Shown here: positions 14,099 through 23,483 of the stretch, in pieces | How positions within the stretch are numbered: the stretch's first letter is position 1 | Layout of the letters: every line of letters begins with the position of its first letter | Source of the DNA: Streptomyces sp. V3I8 | Lineage (GTDB): Bacteria; Actinomycetota; Actinomycetes; Streptomycetales; Streptomycetaceae | Assembly: GCF_030817535.1 (NCBI RefSeq) | Contig: NZ_JAUSZL010000002.1 | Location: forward strand, 4,030,001-4,094,000 | Reading direction: 5' to 3' | Length of the DNA stretch: 64,000 nucleotides | Position numbers and translations under genes: made by a program | The notes under the pieces: generated by a model | Told to the model about the DNA's origin: nothing | The model's database searches: none | The model's input: the letters and a program-made list of their open reading frames with translations, nothing else

Positions 14099-14983
14099 TC
14101 AGTCTGCGGCGCCTCGCCGCCAGCGCGGGACTGCCGCCAGACTCCACAGGTCGTCGAGATGCTTGTTCCACGTCTCCACGACGACGCGTGCGTCGTCATT
14201 GCCGCCCCGGGCCCACACACTGAGTTCCGTGTTGTATCCCTTGGGATCGTAGAACTCGGGATCGGTGCTCCGTTCCACGGTTCGCGCGACCACGTTGTAG
14301 AGGCCGTGCAACACCTGTTCCCGGTTGAAGATGCAGATCTTGTCCCTCGGTATACCGGGGTAGAGACGATATTCGCACTCCGCCGTCACCCGGCCCGCGA
14401 CCGTGAGCCGCTCCACGATCGCCGACAGCCTCTGGTCGTACACCTCGCACTTCGACTCCAGGCCTCGGCGGAACATCGGATCGTCCACCGGTGCGCCGTC
14501 GGGTCCCACACGCGAGGGGACGGTCATCCGCTGCTCGAAGTCCGGAATCAGGATCCGCACGGAGACGTGCCTGGTCGGCCCGGGATCGTCCAGGAGGCCT
14601 TCCAGCCGGTGATACAGCTCGTTGTAAAGCGTCTCCCCCGTGTAGCCGAGGAACCGGATCTCCACCTCCCTGGCACGGAACGCCGCGGTCACGAAGCCGC
14701 CGAGCTCCCGCGACTGGACGCGAGACTGTGGCGGCAGCCGGAGGGACGTGGCCAGTTCCCGTACCGAGTCGTACAGAACGTAGCCGACCAGACTGAGCAG
14801 GGAGCCGCCCAGGGCCGCCTTGCCCTCAAGCGCATCGCCGACGGGTTCGAAGAACTGGGCCACGAGCCCGACGGCGAACATCCCGAGAAGCAGGATGCGG
14901 GTCACGACCGGCTCGAAGCGCGCCTGAAAACGCCTCAGGCGTTCGCCACCACGTAGTGCAGGATCATTCCGCGCACCGGACAT
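14099..14983 (-). CDS. membrane-anchored protein with a DevA-type C-terminal domain
   Basis: 294 residues. Two membrane segments near the N-terminus (about 28-45 and 57-73) form a hairpin. Residues about 98-285 align with the C-terminal effector domain of the three DevA-type GntR regulators encoded nearby. Shared landmarks are TGETLYNELYHRL, VSVRILIPDF, a DDP followed by an Arg, YRLYPGIPRDKICIFN and a final W..HLDDLW. It has no DNA-binding domain. It is the last gene of a unit with the kinase (39 bp upstream). AGGGGGA precedes the ATG. I know no function; a membrane-bound sensor for the same ligand as DevA is inference. Confidence 0.75.
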   Translation of the reverse strand: MSGARNDPALRGGERLRRFQARFEPVVTRILLLGMFAVGLVAQFFEPVGDALEGKAALGGSLLSLVGYVLYDSVRELATSLRLPPQSRVQSRELGGFVTAAFRAREVEIRFLGYTGETLYNELYHRLEGLLDDPGPTRHVSVRILIPDFEQRMTVPSRVGPDGAPVDDPMFRRGLESKCEVYDQRLSAIVERLTVAGRVTAECEYRLYPGIPRDKICIFNREQVLHGLYNVVARTVERSTDPEFYDPKGYNTELSVWARGGNDDARVVVETWNKHLDDLWSLAAVPRWRRGAAD

Positions 14984-15022
14984 CGGCGTCCCCCTTTGAA
15001 CCGGCCGGTCCGGCGCACCGCT

Positions 15023-17269
15023 TCACATTCCGACCGACAGCCTCACCCGCCTGGTGGTGCCATCGTCCCCATGTGGCAGCGCACGGACAAGATAGGGGTT
15101 CGACAGTTCACGCGAGGGAAGTCCGAGCGATCCCTTCGCCGCCCGCAACGTCATCCCGTACGACTGCACCGCTCGACTGACGTTGGGGGCGTCGAGACTC
15201 GCGCCCGTGACCAACCGGTCGAGGTCCACGTAGGCCGAGCGGACCGTCTCGATGCGCCGGTAGACCTGCCAGTCGCTCTCCCAGCCCTTCGTGTACGTGC
15301 TCGGCAACCCTTTGACCCAGCGGCGGAACATGCGGTCGCGAATCTCGGGACGGGTTGGCGTGAGGTGCATGTGCCGGACGAGGTCGTACAGGGGATCACC
15401 GACCAGAGCCATCTCCCAGTCGATGATGGTCAGCGCGTACGCGTCGTCGCGGCGTACGAGGTTCCAGGGGTTCAGGTCGCCGTGCAGCAGGGTCGGCTGC
15501 CGCGGGGTGACCCGGTGCCGCGACAGGATCTCGCCCAGCCGCCGCGCGTTCGGCAACCCCAGCACTCCGGCCAGCTGCTGGGACTCCTTGGGCAACCCAT
15601 CGACGAGCAGCACGAGTTGGCAGTTCAGCCAGGTGGAGAAGTCCCCGTCCTGCGCCCACTCCGTGGCAATCGGGTCCACCGACACGAGGTCGACCCGGGT
15701 GAGCGCACAGAGCTGGTCGACAAGACCGTCCGCCTCACGGGGCAGGAGACCGTTCACCGGGTGACTGGGGGGCTGGTCGTCGTCGCGTGCGCCTTCATAG
15801 GTGTGAATGGCGAAGGGGTCCCTCACATGGCTCTCGCCCAGCGCGAGGATCCTCGGGGCCGTCGCTGCGATCCCGGACCGCTCGATGGCCGCGAGGACGG
15901 CATGCTCGCTCAGGAATCCACGCTCACGACGGCAGACCGATGCCACTTTGCGCCGCACCATGACGGGGAACTCCACGCCTGGCACGCGCACGACGGAGTT
16001 GAGGTGGGCCGTTCCCTTGAACACCCGTTGAGCCGGCGCCGCGCCTTCGGCGATCAGGGCCTCGACCACGGACGAGCGAGGGAAATCAGGGTGCTCGGGG
16101 ATCCGTTCGTCCGGCGTCCACCGGTACACCGTGGCCGTTCTGCCGGTGCCCGGCCGACGGCCGAGGCGGGACGCCTGCCACCGGACAAGGACGCGTTCGA
16201 CCTCTGCTTCGTCCGGTACTCGGACGAGCCGCAGGGGATCGGCGGCGGCCCTCAGCGCCCTGGTGACCGATGCGGTCGCCCGGTCCAGATTCTGCTGGTC
16301 GAGGGAGTGTTCCAGTGAACGCGCCGCCCGCATCACGTCCGGATAGACGGACTGCGCGCGCTCGAATGCCAGATAGTGGCGGAGGTCCTTGGAGAGGCCG
16401 TTCGCAGCCAGGGGCCGAGTGGTCTGCACGGCTGTCACCCAGGCTTCGACGACCTGGTCCCACTGGAAATCCGGGTACTGCATGCGGACCAGATGCGTGG
16501 CCAGGTCGTGAAGGGGGTCACCGTACGTCGCGAGTTCCCAGTCCACGCAGATCAGCGGCGGCTCGCCCCGGTAGGTGACGATCACGTTGTCCCGGTGGAG
16601 GTCAGCGTGGAGCAGGCTGTACGGGCGCCGGGCCATGGCGGGGACCCGCTCGGCCAGCCGGACGAGGGCGTCGTCGGGGATGCCCAGTGCGGCGAACAGA
16701 CCGCCGAAGGCAGCCCAATTGGGCTGACGGATCTGGCGGTCGGCGAGATACGCCAGCGTGCGCAGAAAAGCCCGGCTGTCCTTGTCGTTGGGCGGCCAGT
16801 CGGCGGGCAACGGGGGCAGCGCCTCCTTGCGCACCTGGGACATCTGCGCCAGGAGACCGGCCAGGGCACCGATCAACATGCCATCGACCGGCTTGCCGTT
16901 GGGACAGACCATGGAGAGCGGGACACCCTCCACATAGCTGTGAACGGCTGAGTCGTGCCGCTGGGCCAGACACTGCGGCACGTTCGGCAGGGCATCGCCG
17001 ATGGCGGCGAGGATTTCCGCCTCGTGCTCCCATGTCCTGATGACCACCGGCACGACCTCCGGCCGGCGAATCCGGACGGTCACGCTCGTGCCCGGTTCAC
17101 GCCCCACCCGACGCGCCATCGATTCGGTCAGAGGCAGCACATAATTCTGGTTGTGGTGGCCACTGCTCACCACTCCGACCTGTTTCGCCCGTTCCACGAA
17201 CTCGTCGTAGGCAGCATCGGCGACGCTTGGTTCCCATGGGGCATGGCTGGGAACCGTGGATGTGCCCAC
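15023..17269 (-). CDS. double-domain aminoglycoside/choline-kinase-like phosphotransferase
   Basis: 748 residues containing two complete APH/choline-kinase-like domains (about 30-345 and 390-735). The first has the catalytic loop LLHADLHRDNVIV and metal motif ICVDWELATYGDP; the second has LLHGDLNPWNLV and IIDWEMALVGDP. Both catalytic Asp and both metal Asp are kept, so both halves may be active. The substrate is unknown, and antibiotic resistance should not be assumed from the family name. GTG at 17269 follows AGGAGT. It lies between a DevA-type regulator (145 bp upstream) and the anchored DevA-domain protein (39 bp downstream), all on one strand. Confidence 0.8.
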   Translation of the reverse strand: MGTSTVPSHAPWEPSVADAAYDEFVERAKQVGVVSSGHHNQNYVLPLTESMARRVGREPGTSVTVRIRRPEVVPVVIRTWEHEAEILAAIGDALPNVPQCLAQRHDSAVHSYVEGVPLSMVCPNGKPVDGMLIGALAGLLAQMSQVRKEALPPLPADWPPNDKDSRAFLRTLAYLADRQIRQPNWAAFGGLFAALGIPDDALVRLAERVPAMARRPYSLLHADLHRDNVIVTYRGEPPLICVDWELATYGDPLHDLATHLVRMQYPDFQWDQVVEAWVTAVQTTRPLAANGLSKDLRHYLAFERAQSVYPDVMRAARSLEHSLDQQNLDRATASVTRALRAAADPLRLVRVPDEAEVERVLVRWQASRLGRRPGTGRTATVYRWTPDERIPEHPDFPRSSVVEALIAEGAAPAQRVFKGTAHLNSVVRVPGVEFPVMVRRKVASVCRRERGFLSEHAVLAAIERSGIAATAPRILALGESHVRDPFAIHTYEGARDDDQPPSHPVNGLLPREADGLVDQLCALTRVDLVSVDPIATEWAQDGDFSTWLNCQLVLLVDGLPKESQQLAGVLGLPNARRLGEILSRHRVTPRQPTLLHGDLNPWNLVRRDDAYALTIIDWEMALVGDPLYDLVRHMHLTPTRPEIRDRMFRRWVKGLPSTYTKGWESDWQVYRRIETVRSAYVDLDRLVTGASLDAPNVSRAVQSYGMTLRAAKGSLGLPSRELSNPYLVRALPHGDDGTTRRVRLSVGM

Positions 17270-17345
17270 GGGCAACTCCTGTGACTGAGGTTGCGCAAAC
17301 CCTAAACGCCGTTGAATACGGCTGACGCGCCGGGTTCGTCTCAAT

Positions 17346-17357
17346 GAGGTAAACCTC
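17346..17357. promoter_or_regulatory. short palindrome upstream of the double kinase gene
   Basis: GAGGTAAACCTC (5-2-5) in the 145-bp gap between the GntR gene and the kinase gene; possible operator or internal promoter element. Weak evidence. Confidence 0.3.
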
Positions 17358-17414
17358 TGGTAGGACCCGAGGGAACGGTACGCCTCACATTGCCCCTTAT
17401 CGGCCCAACGGAGA

Positions 17415-18284
17415 TCAGGTCGCCAGCAAGTTCCATACGGAGTCGAACCAGGACTGCATGGTGTCGACGTAAACCGATCCGGTCGAGTTCGGATCATCGT
17501 CCGCGGCGTAGTGCATGAGAGTGGCTCCGACACCGAGCACGTCAAGGGCATCGATCTCCTCACCGTCCTCCAGGACGATGCGCCGCTCGGTCACCTTGTA
17601 CAGCCCGTGCAGTGCGGCCGAGCCGTTCAGCATGTACAGCTTGAAGGCCGGCGTCAGCGGTGCGTGGCGAATCTGCAGGTCGACGGCCGGGACAGCACGC
17701 TGGACCCTCAGCTCTTGAAGCACCTCCCGCAACGAGGCCGCATGGCGGCGGGTGAGGGAGAGCAACCGTGCCTTCACCCGCGGATCGTCCGGCGTCTCCA
17801 TGGACCGGGGATAGGGAAGGTCCAGTTCCTCGGCGGGCAGCAACATGCGCAGTGAGATGCGCTGTGGCGCGATCTGCTTGGCGCGGATCCGCTCCGCCTG
17901 GACCCGGATGTGGGCGTCGAGGGACTCCGACGTCAGGGTGTAGACGTCGAGCGAGACTTCAGGCTCCTCGAAGGCTTCGGCGATGATCGGTCCCAGCATG
18001 ACTGCCCGACCTTGCGCCGAGGGCCTCGGCGTCACGGGCTGAATGCGCTGGACCTTGACCACTCGTGATCCACTGCCCTGCCTGGATTCGATCCAGCCCT
18101 CGCTGACGAGCTCCCTCAGTACCCGTTGGACGGTGTCGCGGGAGACCCCGAACTCCGTGGCCAGCACGCGCTGCGGCGGCAGAAGGGCACCCACGGCGTA
18201 CGTCCCACCGACCATGCGGTTGCGCAGTTCCTCCAGGACGCGCACGAATTCCCTGCCGCCCTCGCCGCTCCGCTCGTCACTCAC
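17415..18284 (-). CDS. GntR-family regulator, DevA subfamily
   Basis: 289 residues. Winged HTH at about 10-75 (VLEELRNRMVGGTYAVGALL, FGVSRDTVQRVLRELVSEGW). The ~190-residue effector domain (about 100-289) shares with DevA VSLDVYTLTSESL, ISLRMLLP, DDP..K.R, LTPAFKLYMLN, ALHGLYKVTERRI and a closing WFDSVWNLL. It is the most divergent of the three paralogues here. The GTG at 18284 is chosen because TACGTT stands 6 bases upstream, the same spacing as in the other two; a TTG 11 codons earlier is less likely. It heads a unit with the kinase and anchored-domain genes and faces a small membrane-protein gene. Confidence 0.8.
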   Translation of the reverse strand: MSDERSGEGGREFVRVLEELRNRMVGGTYAVGALLPPQRVLATEFGVSRDTVQRVLRELVSEGWIESRQGSGSRVVKVQRIQPVTPRPSAQGRAVMLGPIIAEAFEEPEVSLDVYTLTSESLDAHIRVQAERIRAKQIAPQRISLRMLLPAEELDLPYPRSMETPDDPRVKARLLSLTRRHAASLREVLQELRVQRAVPAVDLQIRHAPLTPAFKLYMLNGSAALHGLYKVTERRIVLEDGEEIDALDVLGVGATLMHYAADDDPNSTGSVYVDTMQSWFDSVWNLLAT

Positions 18285-18290
18285 ACGGCG

Positions 18291-18296
18291 AACGTA
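18291..18296 (-). promoter_or_regulatory. predicted -10 (TACGTT) of a leaderless transcript
   Basis: Six bases before the GTG of the DevA-type regulator at 18284. Confidence 0.5.
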
Positions 18297-18342
18297 CCTC
18301 TTCCGGCCTGTCGACAAACCGGATTTCAGTCAAATCGGCAGT

Positions 18343-18358
18343 CCAACTTGAAAGTTGG
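18343..18358. promoter_or_regulatory. operator-like inverted repeat
   Basis: CCAACTTGAAAGTTGG, 7-2-7 and perfect, in the divergent region of the regulator and the small membrane gene. Its half-site (AAGTTGG) recurs in the two paralogous regions at 20348 and 21719. A second palindrome GTCCAATTGGAC is at 18403-18414. Confidence 0.65.
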
Positions 18359-18455
18359 TTAAGGGATCTGCTCACCCGGGGACACCAAATTCAAGGCAAC
18401 CAGTCCAATTGGACCGCTTGTTGATCGCTTCAGTGAAGTAAACGGGGTGGGGAAC

Positions 18456-18644
18456 ATGGTCTTCTTCCAACTACTGGGCGCTTGCATCAGGCTCGCCCTC
18501 TCGCAGCTGGTCCAGTCGAGGCTCGGATTCACCGGGCTGGTCCTGCTGGCCCTCCTGCTGGTGGGGGTGCGGGCCGGCCACCCGCGATTGGCCTGGTGGT
18601 CGGCCGGGCTCTTCTTCCTGCTGACACTCCAGTTGCAGGCTTGA
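18456..18644 (+). CDS. small membrane protein paired with DevA-type regulator (copy 1)
   Basis: 62 residues, two hydrophobic segments (about 2-18 and 25-40) plus a third near 45-60. It aligns with the other two copies over LGACIRLALSQLVQSRLGF, with the glycine-rich turn, VG(V/L/I)(R/K) and a hydrophobic end. GGGGTGGGG precedes the ATG; an in-frame GTG at 18447 is possible. It is divergent from the GntR gene and ends 6 bp before the convergent devB stop. No known function. Copy 1 lacks the Glu of the EQ motif (SQ instead). Confidence 0.65.
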   Translation: MVFFQLLGACIRLALSQLVQSRLGFTGLVLLALLLVGVRAGHPRLAWWSAGLFFLLTLQLQA

Positions 18645-18650
18645 GCCACC

Positions 18651-19388
18651 TCACGACCGGCTCCGGAGAACCCCCAGCACCGGCTCCAACGAGGCCACCA
18701 CGTACCGGGCCCCGGCGTCCCGCAGCAGTTTCTCCTTGCGCTCGTTGCGCGCGTAGCCCAGGAACGGGACTCCGGCCGATTCGGCGGCCAGGTAGTCCGA
18801 CGGGGCGTCGCCGATCATGAGGGCGGACCGCGGGGCGGCGCCGAGGGCGTTCAGGGCCCGGTTCAGGCAGTGCGGGTGCGGTTTGAGGTGGTCCAGGTCC
18901 TGGGTGCGGCCGTAGATGTTCGGCGCGAAGCAGCCGGACAGGCCCCGGCTCTCCAGGTAGGTCGCCGCCGTGCGGGGCGAGTTGTTCGTCGCCACGGCCA
19001 GCCTCGCCCCCACCGCGCTCCAGGTCCGTATCAGCGGGTCCGCGAACTCGGTGGGCCAGGCGGAGGGCGCCGCCTTGAGTTCCTGCTGGGTGAGGCGGTC
19101 CTCCAGCTCGACCACCAGGTCGCTGTGCGGATGGCGGCGGTTGACCGCGTACAGGACCGCCATCGGGTCGGGGTGGACGCGTTCCTGCGCGGTGAGCAGT
19201 TCGCGCAGGCCCTGGCGTTCGAGCCATTCCACCAGGTCCTTCGCCACGTCCTGCGCCGAATGCCCCGCGAAGAGCCGGCAGATCGGCCCGTCGAAGTCGA
19301 AGAGGACGAAGCGGGCCCGCTCGATCACCGCGCGCAGGTTCTCTGTCTCTGTAGCCACCGGACCAGTCTGCTTCGTATCAGGAGTCAC
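18651..19388 (-). CDS. devB: HAD-superfamily phosphatase DevB
   Basis: 245 residues. HAD motif I is VLFDFDGPICRLF, with both nucleophile and acid Asp. Motif II is VATNNSPRTA, motif III has Lys in LKPHPHCLNRAL, and motif IV is LMIGDAPSDYLAA, typical of phosphoglycolate-phosphatase-like HADs with an alpha-helical cap. In S. coelicolor a HAD protein gene called devB is cotranscribed with devA, as is implied here: the GTG at 19388 overlaps the devA stop (TAGTG). A second GTG at 19358 is an alternative start. Substrate unknown; a link to development is known only for the S. coelicolor pair. Confidence 0.8.
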   Translation of the reverse strand: MTPDTKQTGPVATETENLRAVIERARFVLFDFDGPICRLFAGHSAQDVAKDLVEWLERQGLRELLTAQERVHPDPMAVLYAVNRRHPHSDLVVELEDRLTQQELKAAPSAWPTEFADPLIRTWSAVGARLAVATNNSPRTAATYLESRGLSGCFAPNIYGRTQDLDHLKPHPHCLNRALNALGAAPRSALMIGDAPSDYLAAESAGVPFLGYARNERKEKLLRDAGARYVVASLEPVLGVLRSRS

Positions 19389-20260
19389 TAGGAGAGTGTC
19401 AGGTCCGTCGTGATGGTTTCCCAGAGGCCGTCGAACCACTTCTGCGACTCCTCCACGAACGCGGCGTCGCGCTGCCCCGACCGCGTCCAGAAGGAGAAGA
19501 GGAGGGACTTGGAGCCGAGCGCGTCGTACATCTCCAGGGTCCGGCTCTCGTACGGCTCCTCGCGGCGCGTGAGGACGTAGTAGCCGATCAGCGCCTCGGC
19601 TCCGTTGAGCAGGTAGAGCTTGACCGGCGGGGTGAACGGCAGGGCGCGGAACGTGACGTTCACGTCGATGCCGTGCGAGGAGCGCAGGGCGTTGAGGTTG
19701 TGCCGCAGGACATGGGCCTGCGCGTTGCGCATGTCCAGCCAGCGCTGGTGGACCGGGTCGTCCTCGGCGGTGCTGTCGACGGAGACGGGGAAGGCGAGGG
19801 TGATCTCCCGGGACGGCACCAGGATGCGGACGTCGATCGACTCGGGGCGCAGGGTGCCGTCGTGGATCCGGCGGACCGGGTCCCCGATGGCCAGCATCAG
19901 CGTCTCGGCCGTGTGGCACACGACGTCGATACGCACACGCTGCGCGCCGAACGCCTCCACCAGCCGCGGCGCCAGCCCCACCATCGTCGGCTGGGGCTCG
20001 TCCCGCGTCGGGGGCACGTCCGCGATGCGGGGCGGACTGCCCTTGCTGACGTTGCTGAGGAGGCCGTCGTCCTGGAGGGCGCGCAGGGCCTGGCGGACCG
20101 TGCCGCGTTCCACGCCGAACTCCTCGGCGAGCTCGGCCTGGGTGGGCAGGCGGTCGCCGGCGCGCAGGGTGCCCGCGCGTATGCGGTCGCGCAGGATGTC
20201 GGCGATCTCCTGCGCCGAAAGCTTTCTGCTGTCGTTCACTGCCACGTTCTCCTGGGTCAC
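19388..20260 (-). CDS. devA: GntR-family developmental regulator DevA
   Basis: 290 residues. Winged HTH at about 10-80 (AQEIADILRDRIRAGTLRAG, FGVERGTVRQALRALQDDGL), effector domain about 105-290 with VRIDVVCHTAETL, DVRILVPSREI, DDPVHQRWL, FTPPVKLYLLNGAEALIGYY and WFDGLWETI. DevA is required for normal aerial development in S. coelicolor, acts as a repressor and belongs to its own GntR subfamily. The GTG at 20260 is chosen by alignment with the paralogue at 21633 (V-x-x-E-x-x-A-V-N) and by TAGCGT 6 bases upstream. Identity as devA rests on the devB partner and on the family. Confidence 0.85.
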   Translation of the reverse strand: MTQENVAVNDSRKLSAQEIADILRDRIRAGTLRAGDRLPTQAELAEEFGVERGTVRQALRALQDDGLLSNVSKGSPPRIADVPPTRDEPQPTMVGLAPRLVEAFGAQRVRIDVVCHTAETLMLAIGDPVRRIHDGTLRPESIDVRILVPSREITLAFPVSVDSTAEDDPVHQRWLDMRNAQAHVLRHNLNALRSSHGIDVNVTFRALPFTPPVKLYLLNGAEALIGYYVLTRREEPYESRTLEMYDALGSKSLLFSFWTRSGQRDAAFVEESQKWFDGLWETITTDLTLS

Positions 20261-20266
20261 GACCAA

Positions 20267-20272
20267 ACGCTA
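20267..20272 (-). promoter_or_regulatory. predicted -10 (TAGCGT) of devA, leaderless
   Basis: TAGCGT, six bases, then GTG. The paralogue devE shows the same layout and near-identical sequence (GTTGTAG.GTT.GGTCGTG), so the promoter and start are conserved together. Confidence 0.6.
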
Positions 20273-20347
20273 CAACCTGGGCCCATCTAAAGGGACTTGT
20301 TTGAAAGTTGTTTGCGACTAGGTACCAACTGGGGATAACTTAAGCAT

Positions 20348-20362
20348 AGTTGGTAACCAACT
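20348..20362. promoter_or_regulatory. operator-like inverted repeat in the devA divergent region
   Basis: AGTTGGTAACCAACT (7-1-7, perfect). It lies in a longer block, GATAACTT-N7-AGTTGGTNACCAACTTCA, that is repeated almost unchanged in the devE region at 21707-21738. A further half-site GGTACCAACT is at about 20321. Confidence 0.7.
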
Positions 20363-20457
20363 TCAAAGAGATGGCGGAAGTTCCGCCTCCTCTCGCAAGG
20401 AGTTGGCACGTAGGAAGGTTCCGCATCCGTACCGCACGATCCGAAGGAGGATCCACC

Positions 20458-20646
20458 ATGCCCGCCATCGCCCTCTTCTCCGCCCTCCTCGTCGTCGGAT
20501 TCGAACAGTTCGTCGAGTGGCGGTTCGGCCTGGGCGGCGCCGTAGGACTGCTGCTGCTCACCGTGGGCCTCAAGGTCAGAAGCCCCACCTGCAGCTCCGT
20601 CGGGGCCGTCGTCCTGGCCCTGATATTCACAGGACCGGCTCTGTGA
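20458..20646 (+). CDS. small membrane protein paired with DevA (copy 2)
   Basis: 62 residues, two hydrophobic segments (about 3-17 and 24-40) around the motif VVGFEQFVEWRFGLGGAVG, then VGLKVRSPTCSSVGAVVLAL. Strong GAAGGAGG 7 bases before the ATG, shared with copy 3. It is divergent from devA across a spacer that carries the palindromic operator. No function known; it aligns with copies 1 and 3 only among the proteins I recognise. Confidence 0.75.
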   Translation: MPAIALFSALLVVGFEQFVEWRFGLGGAVGLLLLTVGLKVRSPTCSSVGAVVLALIFTGPAL

Positions 20647-20671
20647 CCTGCGGGAACCATCCGCAGCTCAC
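20643..20671. terminator. hairpin after small membrane gene copy 2
   Basis: 11-bp stem with one mismatch (20643-20653 with 20661-20671), 7-base loop, overlapping the stop codon and lying before the convergent devE stop. Confidence 0.55.
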
Positions 20672-20718
20672 ACCGCGCGAGCCCAGCTCGAAGCAGGCCG
20701 TACCACCCGTGGGAGATC

Positions 20719-21633
20719 TCAGCCCGTGAGCACCAGCTCCGAGCTGATGGTCTCCCACAGCGCGTTGAACCACAGGTGCGACTGTTCCACGAACGTCGCG
20801 GCGCGCAGCCCCTCGCCCGGCTCGAAGGCGAACAGCATCGACTGGGTCCCCTCCGCGTCGTACGTCTCCAGGTACTCGTGGTCGATCTCCTCGCCCCGCC
20901 GCTCCAGCGTGTAGTACGCGAAGAGCGCCTCCGCCTCGTTGAGCAGGTACAACTTCACCGGCGGGGTGAACGGCAGGGCCCGGAACGTGATGCGCACGTC
21001 GATGCCGTGCGTCGCCCGTAACGCCAGCAGGTTGTGCTTGAGGACCTGGCCCTGGGCGTTGCGCTGGGCCAGCCAGCGCCGCTGGACCCGCGCCCCGTCC
21101 CCCGTCGCGTCCACCGCCGCCGGGAAGGCGAGGTCGATGTCACGGGACGGCAGCAGGACGCGGACGTCGATCCTGGCCGGTTTCATTCGCCCCTCGTGGA
21201 TGAGCCGCAGCGGTTCGCCCATCGCGAGGGTCAGCGAGACGGCCGTCAGGCACAGCGCGTCGATCGCCACGTGCGGCGCCGAGAAGGCGTCCGTGATGCG
21301 CGAGGCCAGCGCCACCATGGTGGTCCGCGGCGGGGCCGCCGGCCCGGTCAGCGCCTTGTCCACGTCCTGCGCGACCGTCGCCGGGCTGCCCTTGGACACG
21401 TTGGACAGCAGGTTCTCCGACTGCAGGATGCGCAGCGCCTGCCGCACGGTCCCGCGCTCGACCCCGAACTCGTCGGCCAGTCTGGCCTGCGTGGGCATGC
21501 GCGCTCCCGCCCGCAGCTCACCCGACAAGATCCGGCTGCGCAGCTCGTCGGCCACCTCGTGGTGCGACCTCTGCGAACGCTGTGTCTGCTGTGCCCTGTT
21601 CCGCCCGTTGACGGCGGCATGTTCCGGGTCCAC
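20719..21633 (-). CDS. devE: GntR-family regulator, DevA paralogue (DevE-like)
   Basis: 304 residues. HTH at about 22-92 (HEVADELRSRILSGELRAGA, FGVERGTVRQALRILQSENL). The effector domain (about 115-304) has VAIDALCLTAVSLTLAMGEP, DVRVLLPSRDIDLAFP, RVQRRWLAQRNAQ, FTPPVKLYLLNEAEALFAYY and LWFNALWETI. It is much closer to DevA than to the copy at 17415. In S. coelicolor the adjacent devA paralogue has a separate developmental role. The GTG start at 21633 is preceded by TAGGGT at 6 bases. Symbol given by position and similarity only. Confidence 0.8.
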   Translation of the reverse strand: MDPEHAAVNGRNRAQQTQRSQRSHHEVADELRSRILSGELRAGARMPTQARLADEFGVERGTVRQALRILQSENLLSNVSKGSPATVAQDVDKALTGPAAPPRTTMVALASRITDAFSAPHVAIDALCLTAVSLTLAMGEPLRLIHEGRMKPARIDVRVLLPSRDIDLAFPAAVDATGDGARVQRRWLAQRNAQGQVLKHNLLALRATHGIDVRITFRALPFTPPVKLYLLNEAEALFAYYTLERRGEEIDHEYLETYDAEGTQSMLFAFEPGEGLRAATFVEQSHLWFNALWETISSELVLTG

Positions 21634-21639
21634 GACCGA

Positions 21640-21645
21640 ACCCTA
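21640..21645 (-). promoter_or_regulatory. predicted -10 (TAGGGT) of the devE-like gene, leaderless
   Basis: Six bases before GTG at 21633, same layout as devA. Confidence 0.6.
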
Positions 21646-21709
21646 CAACTTCGCGCCATCTTTGGGCAGTTACCGCGAAGGTGGTTATGAGACGCATCCA
21701 AGCGGAGAT

Positions 21710-21738
21710 AACTTCATTGAAGTTGGTGACCAACTTCA
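21710..21738. promoter_or_regulatory. overlapping operator-like palindromes, devE divergent region
   Basis: GAAGTTGGTGACCAACTTC (9-1-9; the flanking T and A extend it to 10-1-10) at 21719-21737, overlapping AACTTCATTGAAGTT (7-1-7) at 21710-21724. The first is the same motif as in the devA region. Confidence 0.7.
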
Positions 21739-21843
21739 GCAACATGGTCAAACTTCCGGGGGGTTGGCCACCGGGGTCGCGAACGGCGACCAGGTGATTC
21801 GGTCCCGGCGGGGGTTGCCGCCCCGTCCCGAAGGAGGGACCGC

Positions 21844-22029
21844 ATGCCGCTCGTAGCCATCGTCGTCGCCGTCCTCGCCATCGCCATGGAGCAGCTGCTC
21901 CAGGTCAAGTACGGAGTGATGGGCGTCGTCGCCTTCGTCGCCCTCGCCATCGGAATCAAGGCCAAGAACTCAATGATCGGCGGCATCGGGGCAGTGATCC
22001 TCGTGGTGCTGCTCGCCCAGTCCGGCTGA
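21844..22029 (+). CDS. small membrane protein paired with the DevA paralogue (copy 3)
   Basis: 61 residues, almost wholly hydrophobic: segment 1 about 3-17, then EQLLQVKYGVMG, segment 2 about 24-37 ending GIKAKNS, and segment 3 about 45-57 (GGIGAVILVVLL). GAAGGAGGGACCGC precedes the ATG, as in copy 2. Divergent from the devE-like gene. Unknown function. Confidence 0.75.
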   Translation: MPLVAIVVAVLAIAMEQLLQVKYGVMGVVAFVALAIGIKAKNSMIGGIGAVILVVLLAQSG

Positions 22030-22051
22030 TCGGACCTCACCGTCCGGCAGC

Positions 22052-22100
22052 CGGCCGACCGGGTTCCCTTCCGGAGGGGAGCCGGGAGCCCGGTCGGCCG
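22052..22100 (+). terminator. strong hairpin after small membrane gene copy 3
   Basis: 12-bp perfect outer stem (22052-22063 with 22089-22100, arm CGGCCGACCGGG), extended inwards by about five more pairs. A second, smaller hairpin follows. Confidence 0.75.
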
Positions 22101-22226: not shown

Positions 22227-23483
22227 TCAGAAGATGTCCGGGCACCACGGTCGCCTGGATGTACGCAGCAGGGCGTCGGCCAGCCGGGCGGCGCCCTCTC
22301 GTATCTCCTGGACCCGGCCCAGCGCCGCGAGCCGGACCGCCGACTCGTCCCCGAGCCACAGCGACCCCAACCCGGCCACCGGAAGGACCAGTTCGGCCTC
22401 CTCGGTGGTCCGCGCGCAGCTCGCTCCCTCGGGCGAGGCGTCCAGCCGGTACCGGCCCCGGGCGAGTCCGGCCGCGTCCGTCACCTCCAGGACGAGGGCG
22501 CCCGTCGCCCCGTATGTCCGGGCCTCCAGCGCCGCCACGACGTCCAGGATCCGTACCCACAGCCAGTCGGCCTGCGTGGTGATCGCCGCCGCGCGCGGGT
22601 CGGGGAGCAGGTGCGGCAGCAGGTCGTCGGCGGCACGCCGGCCCGTCCGGACGGCCGTGACCCAGTCGATCGAGCAGACGTGCTGCCACAGGGCGCGTTC
22701 CGCGGCCGGCGAGACGGCGATCAGGTCCTTGACCTGCGCGGTCTGCAGCGGCTGCTTCGCGTCCCCCCAGTGGTCGTCCACCGTGTACGTGAGCAGGCCC
22801 TCCGTCTCGCCCCGCGCGTTGCGGTACACGGCGTGGAACGGCTCGGTCCAGGCCGCCCGGTCCGGCACCGGCCCGCCCGTGGCCGTCTGCCACCACCGCT
22901 CGCTCCGGTCGATCGCGCCCGGCTGCGAACGCCTGAGCCGCTCGTGCAGCTCCGGCCCGTTCTTCCGTACGTCGTCGCCGTCCACGAGGTCGACACGGCC
23001 GCCGTCGCCGGGTCCGGCCCACCGGGGGTCGAGCCCCGTCCGCGGGACGTCGACCGTCCACTCGGCGGTCGTGGTGGCCGCCCCGAACCCGTACCGGCCG
23101 TAGATCGGGTACTCCGCGGCGATCAGCGTCGCCACCACGTCTCCGCGTTCCCGCGCGGCCGCCAGGTCCTGGGCCATCATCCGCGTGAGGATGCCCCGGC
23201 GGCGGTGGGTCGAGGTCACGGTGACGTTCGAGATCGCGTCGGCCCGTACGGCCGTGCCGCCCACCGCGGTGATCTCCTGCGCGAACGACCGGAAGGTCCC
23301 CACGCACCGCTGCCCGTCGAAGGCCCCCAGCGTCCGCTCGGGCACGATGTAGGTGCTGCGGTCCGCGATCTCCGCCTCCGACGGGCCGGGCGGCCGCAGG
23401 AACCCGGTGTTCATGGCGCGGATCCAGTCGGGGATCTCGTCGGCACGGATGGGGCGTACGTCGATGTCGTCGCGCGAACTCAT
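22227..23483 (-). CDS. Eis-like GNAT N-acetyltransferase
   Basis: 418 residues. N-terminal GNAT domain with acetyl-CoA-binding [18 protein letters not shown] (about 90-110), a second GNAT-like half and a C-terminal SCP2-like domain. The chain ends in CPDIF; in Eis the free C-terminal carboxylate serves in catalysis and this ending fits. Family members acetylate aminoglycosides or lysines; the physiological substrate here is unknown. TAGCGT 6 bases before the ATG predicts a leaderless mRNA. Confidence 0.85.

Follow-up and report, generated by a model that had tools for sequence, protein, structure and literature searches.

The Streptomyces dev cluster as repeated GntR regulator-DevC units with a predicted, non-catalytic phospholipase D-type effector domain

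Overview of the Locus

What do several GntR regulators of one subfamily sense when they lie side by side, each facing a very small hydrophobic protein, and what do they control? The question is raised by the region between 14.1 and 22.1 kb of a 64,000-nucleotide stretch (hereafter the window, a piece of the 9.3-Mb genome of Streptomyces sp. V3I8), in which the minus strand encodes a membrane-anchored protein, a two-domain APH-family kinase, a HAD phosphatase, and three GntR regulators, and the plus strand encodes three hydrophobic proteins of ~60 residues, each opposite one regulator. The regulator genes at 19388 and 20719 and the HAD gene correspond to devA, devE, and devB of Streptomyces coelicolor (PMC3187754), where likewise two DevA-type GntR genes are adjacent, devB is co-transcribed with devA, and a small devC is divergent; the context described for the DevA subfamily, with devB downstream and devC divergent, is present in the window. 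Streptomyces sviceus has further copies, DevF and DevG, as the window has a third regulator (PMC3187754). According to the same paper, sporulation requires devA at one step and devE at another, repression by DevA acts on its own gene (negative autoregulation, in S. coelicolor) and on devB, and the signals sensed and the target genes are called open. Its main text does not contain the words operator, binding site, membrane, or phospholipase D or any word beginning with palindrom-.

The dev system is real and well conserved in Streptomyces, and its parts are partly in print. Our best explanation of the whole, in which our confidence is about evenly divided, is that the window contains the Streptomyces dev cluster, made up of repeated units of a GntR repressor and a divergent DevC, and that a ligand bound in the non-catalytic pocket of a phospholipase D (PLD)-type domain relieves the repression of devC and of the devB operon. 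That grading is a joint one and extends to the assignment of the effector domain, on the basis of structural models, to the PLD superfamily as a non-catalytic member.

Structure and Occurrence of the Effector Domain

Four proteins of the window, encoded on the minus strand at 14099-14983, 17415-18317, 19388-20266, and 20719-21633, have one domain of ~190 residues in common. The earlier note had placed it three times behind a GntR winged helix-turn-helix (wHTH) and once behind a membrane hairpin, and BLASTP, a genome profile, and Pfam all bear this out. The anchored copy (14099-14983) aligns with the DevA copy at E 4e-14 and with that of the third regulator at E 2e-12 (E-values of single comparisons), and identity between DevA and DevE is 59%. 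A search of the whole genome with a profile of the four copies returned the same four and, near a chromosome end, an interrupted copy in two fragments. In a Pfam scan the three regulators, but not the anchored protein, match the GntR wHTH (PF00392). The Pfam matches of the regulators include no UTRA, FCD, or aminotransferase domain; the regulators have the wHTH in common with the HutC, FadR, and MocR subfamilies but differ in what follows it. The devA equivalent (19388-20266) probably starts at GTG 20260 and is leaderless: positions 20258-20276 carry GTTGTAGCGTTTGGTCGTG, a 19-base promoter end identical to that of S. coelicolor devA, which is listed as leaderless with that sequence given (PMC3160421).

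By sequence search the domain gave no meaningful match in Pfam or among PDB sequences. As modeled in DevA and in the anchored protein, it has a degenerate PLD superfamily fold; DevE and the third regulator are joined to these two by sequence. That both modeled proteins have this predicted fold supports the proposal that the domain occurs in a soluble and an anchored form. The anchored-protein model was used for structure comparison because the VIA-align search with the full DevA model was filled by GntR winged helices and was uninformative on the effector domain. The top-ranked structure match is the sugar-binding domain of TrmB (2f5t); other matches include MITD1 and PLD enzymes, and five of the 50 Foldseek matches, none better than E 0.025, are to RadA. 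The archaeal TrmB regulators likewise combine a winged helix with a PLD-fold effector domain, but the regulators of the window have a wHTH of the GntR type, and no TrmB Pfam match was found among 33 sequences of the domain.

The catalytic motif of PLD enzymes is HxK(x)4D. Among 325 distinct copies of the domain (from 333 long domain sequences), the His is absent in 325/325 and the Asp in 325/325, and the Lys is kept in 321/325. The single-HKD PLD enzymes Nuc and NucT also have one PLD-fold domain per chain and differ from the window-type domain in that it lacks the catalytic His and Asp. Conserved Lys, Arg, and Tyr residues lie in or close to what was the active-site motif, both in the soluble and in the anchored proteins. 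The PLD fold of the domain and its anchored paralogue are new as far as our searches go, and a literature search found no paper joining the DevA subfamily with phospholipase D.

The domain is present in 36 of the 61 Streptomyces genomes scanned and absent from 25. A scan of 197 genomes of the class found it in 24, including nine from other genera. These nine came from the class-wide scan, whose profile was broader; the phylum-wide search, with 8 candidates scored per genome among the matches listed, gave one genome outside the genus. One locus was taken from each of the nine genomes, and one of them (G567) has a further partial match.

DevC and Its Association with the Regulators

The small hydrophobic genes lie on the plus strand at 18456-18644 (alternative start GTG 18447) opposite the third regulator, at 20458-20646 opposite devA, and at 21844-22029 opposite devE, as had been claimed. 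The earlier note knew of no description of the dev genes as a regulator plus membrane-peptide system; a divergent devC, called a small hypothetical protein, is already named in PMC3187754. All three proteins belong to one family, that of devC. Its status as a family and its exclusive placement beside domain genes are, so far as our searches reach, new.

A profile seeded with the three window proteins found 37 open reading frames (ORFs) in 36 stretches, of which 33 have a domain gene divergent within 700 bp; in the other four, the start of the longest frame hides the arrangement or a HAD gene intervenes (L064). In the 61 Streptomyces genomes, the scan gave 47 matches with E-values no higher than 1e-11, distributed over 27 genomes, and one further weak match (E 0.005). 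All 47 clear copies adjoin a domain gene, positions being compared by eye, with a HAD gene between the two in two genomes (G002 and G021). DevC occurs in 27/36 genomes that have the domain versus 0/25 that lack it (Fisher 7e-10); the profile was built from domain neighbors, which biases it toward such neighbors, and the scan itself was genome-wide. At two loci from two genomes (L063 and L064), where the HAD gene stands between DevC and the regulator, DevC lies opposite a HAD-regulator operon.

Larger counts were taken from the window and 80 named loci, the best 80 of 430 relatives and hence biased toward close ones. Here 166/169 DevC ORFs are opposite a classified domain gene; the class limits were set by score and left 12 domain genes as "other," two of which are opposite a DevC. 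A DevC is found opposite 79/83 devA, 58/79 devE, 29/52 third-type, and 0/18 anchored genes. The count for devE contradicts the statement that S. sviceus and S. coelicolor alone retain the devC on the devE side (PMC3187754). The median dN/dS of DevC is 0.34 (devA), 0.33 (devE), and 0.62 (third-type), computed on the genes of commonest length in each class (47/79, 35/58, and 17/29), and with these values the ORFs fit protein-coding genes. Because the nearest DevC from another locus lies opposite the same regulator class in 165/166 cases, joint duplication of regulator and DevC is the most likely history. Comparison of DevC with Pfam gave scattered weak matches, and 23 members compared with PHROGs gave no match to a phage protein family at E 0.01, holin-like proteins included.

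The pairing is a Streptomyces feature. In the nine loci outside the genus, neither a DevC-like gene nor a convincing hydrophobic ORF was found opposite the regulator (0/9), whereas a devB-related HAD gene adjoins the regulator in 9/9. A divergent subclass within Streptomyces (L070, L071, L072, L074, L075, L259, and L260) is also without DevC and has the HAD gene in 7/7. Because HAD is kept and DevC is missing there, regulator and DevB are probably the old core and DevC a Streptomyces addition. The module of regulator and small membrane gene proposed by the earlier note is therefore conserved within Streptomyces, but as a general idea it fails the cross-genus conservation on which it had been staked beforehand.

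Sequences Upstream of the Regulator Genes

A palindrome, AGTTGGYNRCCAACT, is found repeatedly ~95 bp ahead of the start of devA and devE genes, with little variation in position, and third-type genes have YCAATTGGR in its place. The corresponding predicted operators in the window are AGTTGGTAACCAACT at 20348-20362, between devA and its devC, AGTTGGTGACCAACT at 21721-21735, between devE (20719-21633, minus strand, with a GntR wHTH and the PLD-fold-type domain common to the four proteins) and its DevC-type gene, and GTCCAATTGGAC at 18403-18414 in the third unit, whose regulator (17415-18317, minus strand) has the recognition helix SRDTVQR. Throughout the genome, the exact devA/devE palindrome occurs only at window positions 20348 and 21721, and GTCCAATTGGAC only at 18403 (control 0).

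Upstream regions were sampled from 246 of 334 domain ORFs, after removal of 81 with an unparsable helix, 6 duplicates, and 1 short region. Regulators with ER-type helices have GTTGG(1-4)CCAAC upstream in 164/187 cases and YCAATTGGR in 0/187, and those with SR-type helices have YCAATTGGR in 35/48 and the GTTGG type in 0/48. Other or misparsed helices account for 11/246, including one misparsed as DR that carries the third-type motif. Both motifs were scored everywhere, with the same counts as when the second was scored only where the first was missing, and shuffled upstream regions gave 0.3 and 0.8 matches per 246. In these sequences, the two operator types track the recognition helix without crossing; the two predicted operator codes are new within the reach of our searches. 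Since helix core and operator core are common to DevA and DevE, cross-binding of the two is predicted in vitro; cross-regulation in vivo is argued against in PMC3187754. Among the third-type genes with distances listed (17/22), the motif starts at a distance of 43-51 bp from where the DevC profile begins, a spacing that suggests direct control of devC by the third-type regulator.

Looser patterns were used to look for a wider regulon. With one mismatch the palindrome has eight sites, six of them outside the locus, versus six in the control, and the long pattern of the third type, allowing three mismatches at most, has its own site only, versus 2 and 3 places in the controls. Further repeats lie near the promoters. 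In the promoter region of the third regulator (18343-18358), half-sites of the devA/devE type form an inverted repeat, CCAACTTGAAAGTTGG, a possible site of cross-regulation judging by its sequence. Between the palindrome and the devA start (20258-20345), more GTTG/CAAC half-sites surround the core promoter in most of 19 aligned sequences and may possibly be the true autorepression site. In four of the seven loci of the divergent DevC-less subclass (L070, L071, L072, and L260), the gene has a palindrome of its own upstream, TAGCCAnnnTGGCTA or ATGGCTAGCCAT.

Proposed Regulation by the Effector Domain

In the mechanism that we propose, each regulator would bind its own palindrome in the intergenic region common to both genes and would repress both devC and the operon of the regulator itself. 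The old PLD site, with its conserved Arg, Lys, and Tyr, would bind a small metabolite, anionic and perhaps phosphorylated, and the repression would thereby be lifted. DevB and the kinase may make or remove this metabolite or a relative, DevC would be the output in the membrane, and the membrane-anchored copy would read a ligand of this kind at the membrane without binding DNA. A broader form of this mechanism is that a retired PLD-type domain has been turned to multichannel sensing, with three repressors on two operator codes and an anchored version responding to anionic or phosphorylated signals from DevB and the double kinase, and with the main output of each being its own DevC, acting in aerial growth and septation; this form we advance only tentatively.

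DevC could instead be a membrane partner that binds the effector domain and either tethers the repressor to the membrane or relays a signal to it. The common duplication of regulator and DevC (class match 165/166) and the existence of an anchored version of the domain would agree with such contact, as would a weak residual distance correlation between devA and DevC (0.22 controlling for the GNAT gene and 0.26 controlling for HAD). However, the devA residual equals that of HAD (0.22), the devE residuals are -0.15 (GNAT) and 0.00 (HAD), and the raw Spearman values between DevC and regulator, 0.31 (devA) and 0.00 (devE), lie below those of the neighboring GNAT gene (0.47 and 0.48). Being weak for devA and absent for devE, these mirror-tree correlations were not taken as support for binding. 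Nor was DevC found in the nine loci outside the genus; 21/79 devE genes are not opposite a DevC and 20 of these 21 loci still keep the operator, which argues against direct contact; and the anchored hairpin is not detectably related to DevC, and none of the 18 anchored genes has a DevC opposite it. Contact between the two proteins, as suggested by the earlier note, thus left no clear sign, and we consider it unlikely. Another possibility is that DevC limits growth or perturbs the membrane and is repressed until development; derepression of devC, and not devB alone, would then contribute to the block in a devA null mutant. The strongest predicted operator does sit in the divergent region upstream of devC, the deletion phenotype is ascribed to constitutive devB, and devC is mentioned there simply as a small divergent gene (PMC3187754). 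The 21/79 devE loci without DevC speak against this reading, as does the absence of a PHROGs match among 23 members, and we regard it as quite unlikely.

The ligand may also be no soluble metabolite. MITD1 binds membranes, and its presence with PLD enzymes among the fold matches, together with the anchored paralogue, would suit a domain that binds the head groups of membrane lipids and lets the regulators shuttle between membrane and DNA; we hold this improbable. Finally, single-HKD PLD domains pair, and no ligand is known, as would be expected if the domain were a dimerization module only; but the conserved Lys, Arg, and Tyr around the former catalytic motif, present in both forms of the domain, speak against it, and we give it very little credence. 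For the preferred mechanism of ligand-relieved repression, a predicted PLD-type pocket with named residues (K216, R147, and R207 in DevA), two predicted operators, and a conserved small membrane target make direct experiments possible, and it offers another reading of the devA null phenotype, in which devC may be derepressed alongside devB.

Kinase, Phosphatase, and Anchored Protein

The enzymes of the cluster are as the earlier note described them, a HAD phosphatase and a double kinase; in both, the catalytic motifs are present. The devB equivalent (18651-19358, minus strand, start at GTG 19358 inferred) lies downstream of devA and, in comparison with the catalytic motifs of the HAD family, retains them; a HAD gene is present in 79/80 named loci. 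The kinase gene (15023-17269, minus strand) encodes two APH-family halves, each retaining HxDxxxxN and (V/I)DWE of the APH motifs. Its 846-residue frame runs into the third regulator gene, and a GTG near 17269 is the more likely start. Near the 80 loci and in the window, 51/95 kinase ORFs are at least 650 residues long, so the two-domain form is common and not universal.

The anchored protein has a basic N terminus, followed by a two-helix hairpin and, at residues ~93-284, the DevA-type PLD-fold domain. Both flanks of the hairpin carry basic residues, an arrangement suggestive of a cytoplasmic orientation for the domain. Its gene directly follows the kinase gene in 18/80 gene orders. At E 1e-6 it has 250 relatives; among the 120 listed, every organism named is a Streptomyces, and most are called hypothetical protein. 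An attempt to unite the DevC and anchored hairpins in one family gave an hhalign probability below 1% with shallow profiles. A second anchored copy, near a chromosome end (L078:5249-7036; G000:C2:8837248-8839035), is interrupted by a stretch, one frame of which reads like a transposase. Distant anchored versions of the domain were seen at L050:7535-8590, L051:4446-5477, L076, and L077, some of them away from the dev cluster.

In the window, a gene for a GNAT (Eis-like) acetyltransferase (22227-23483) adjoins the cluster. With a relative in 74/80 named loci, it may be a member of the neighborhood by more than chance.

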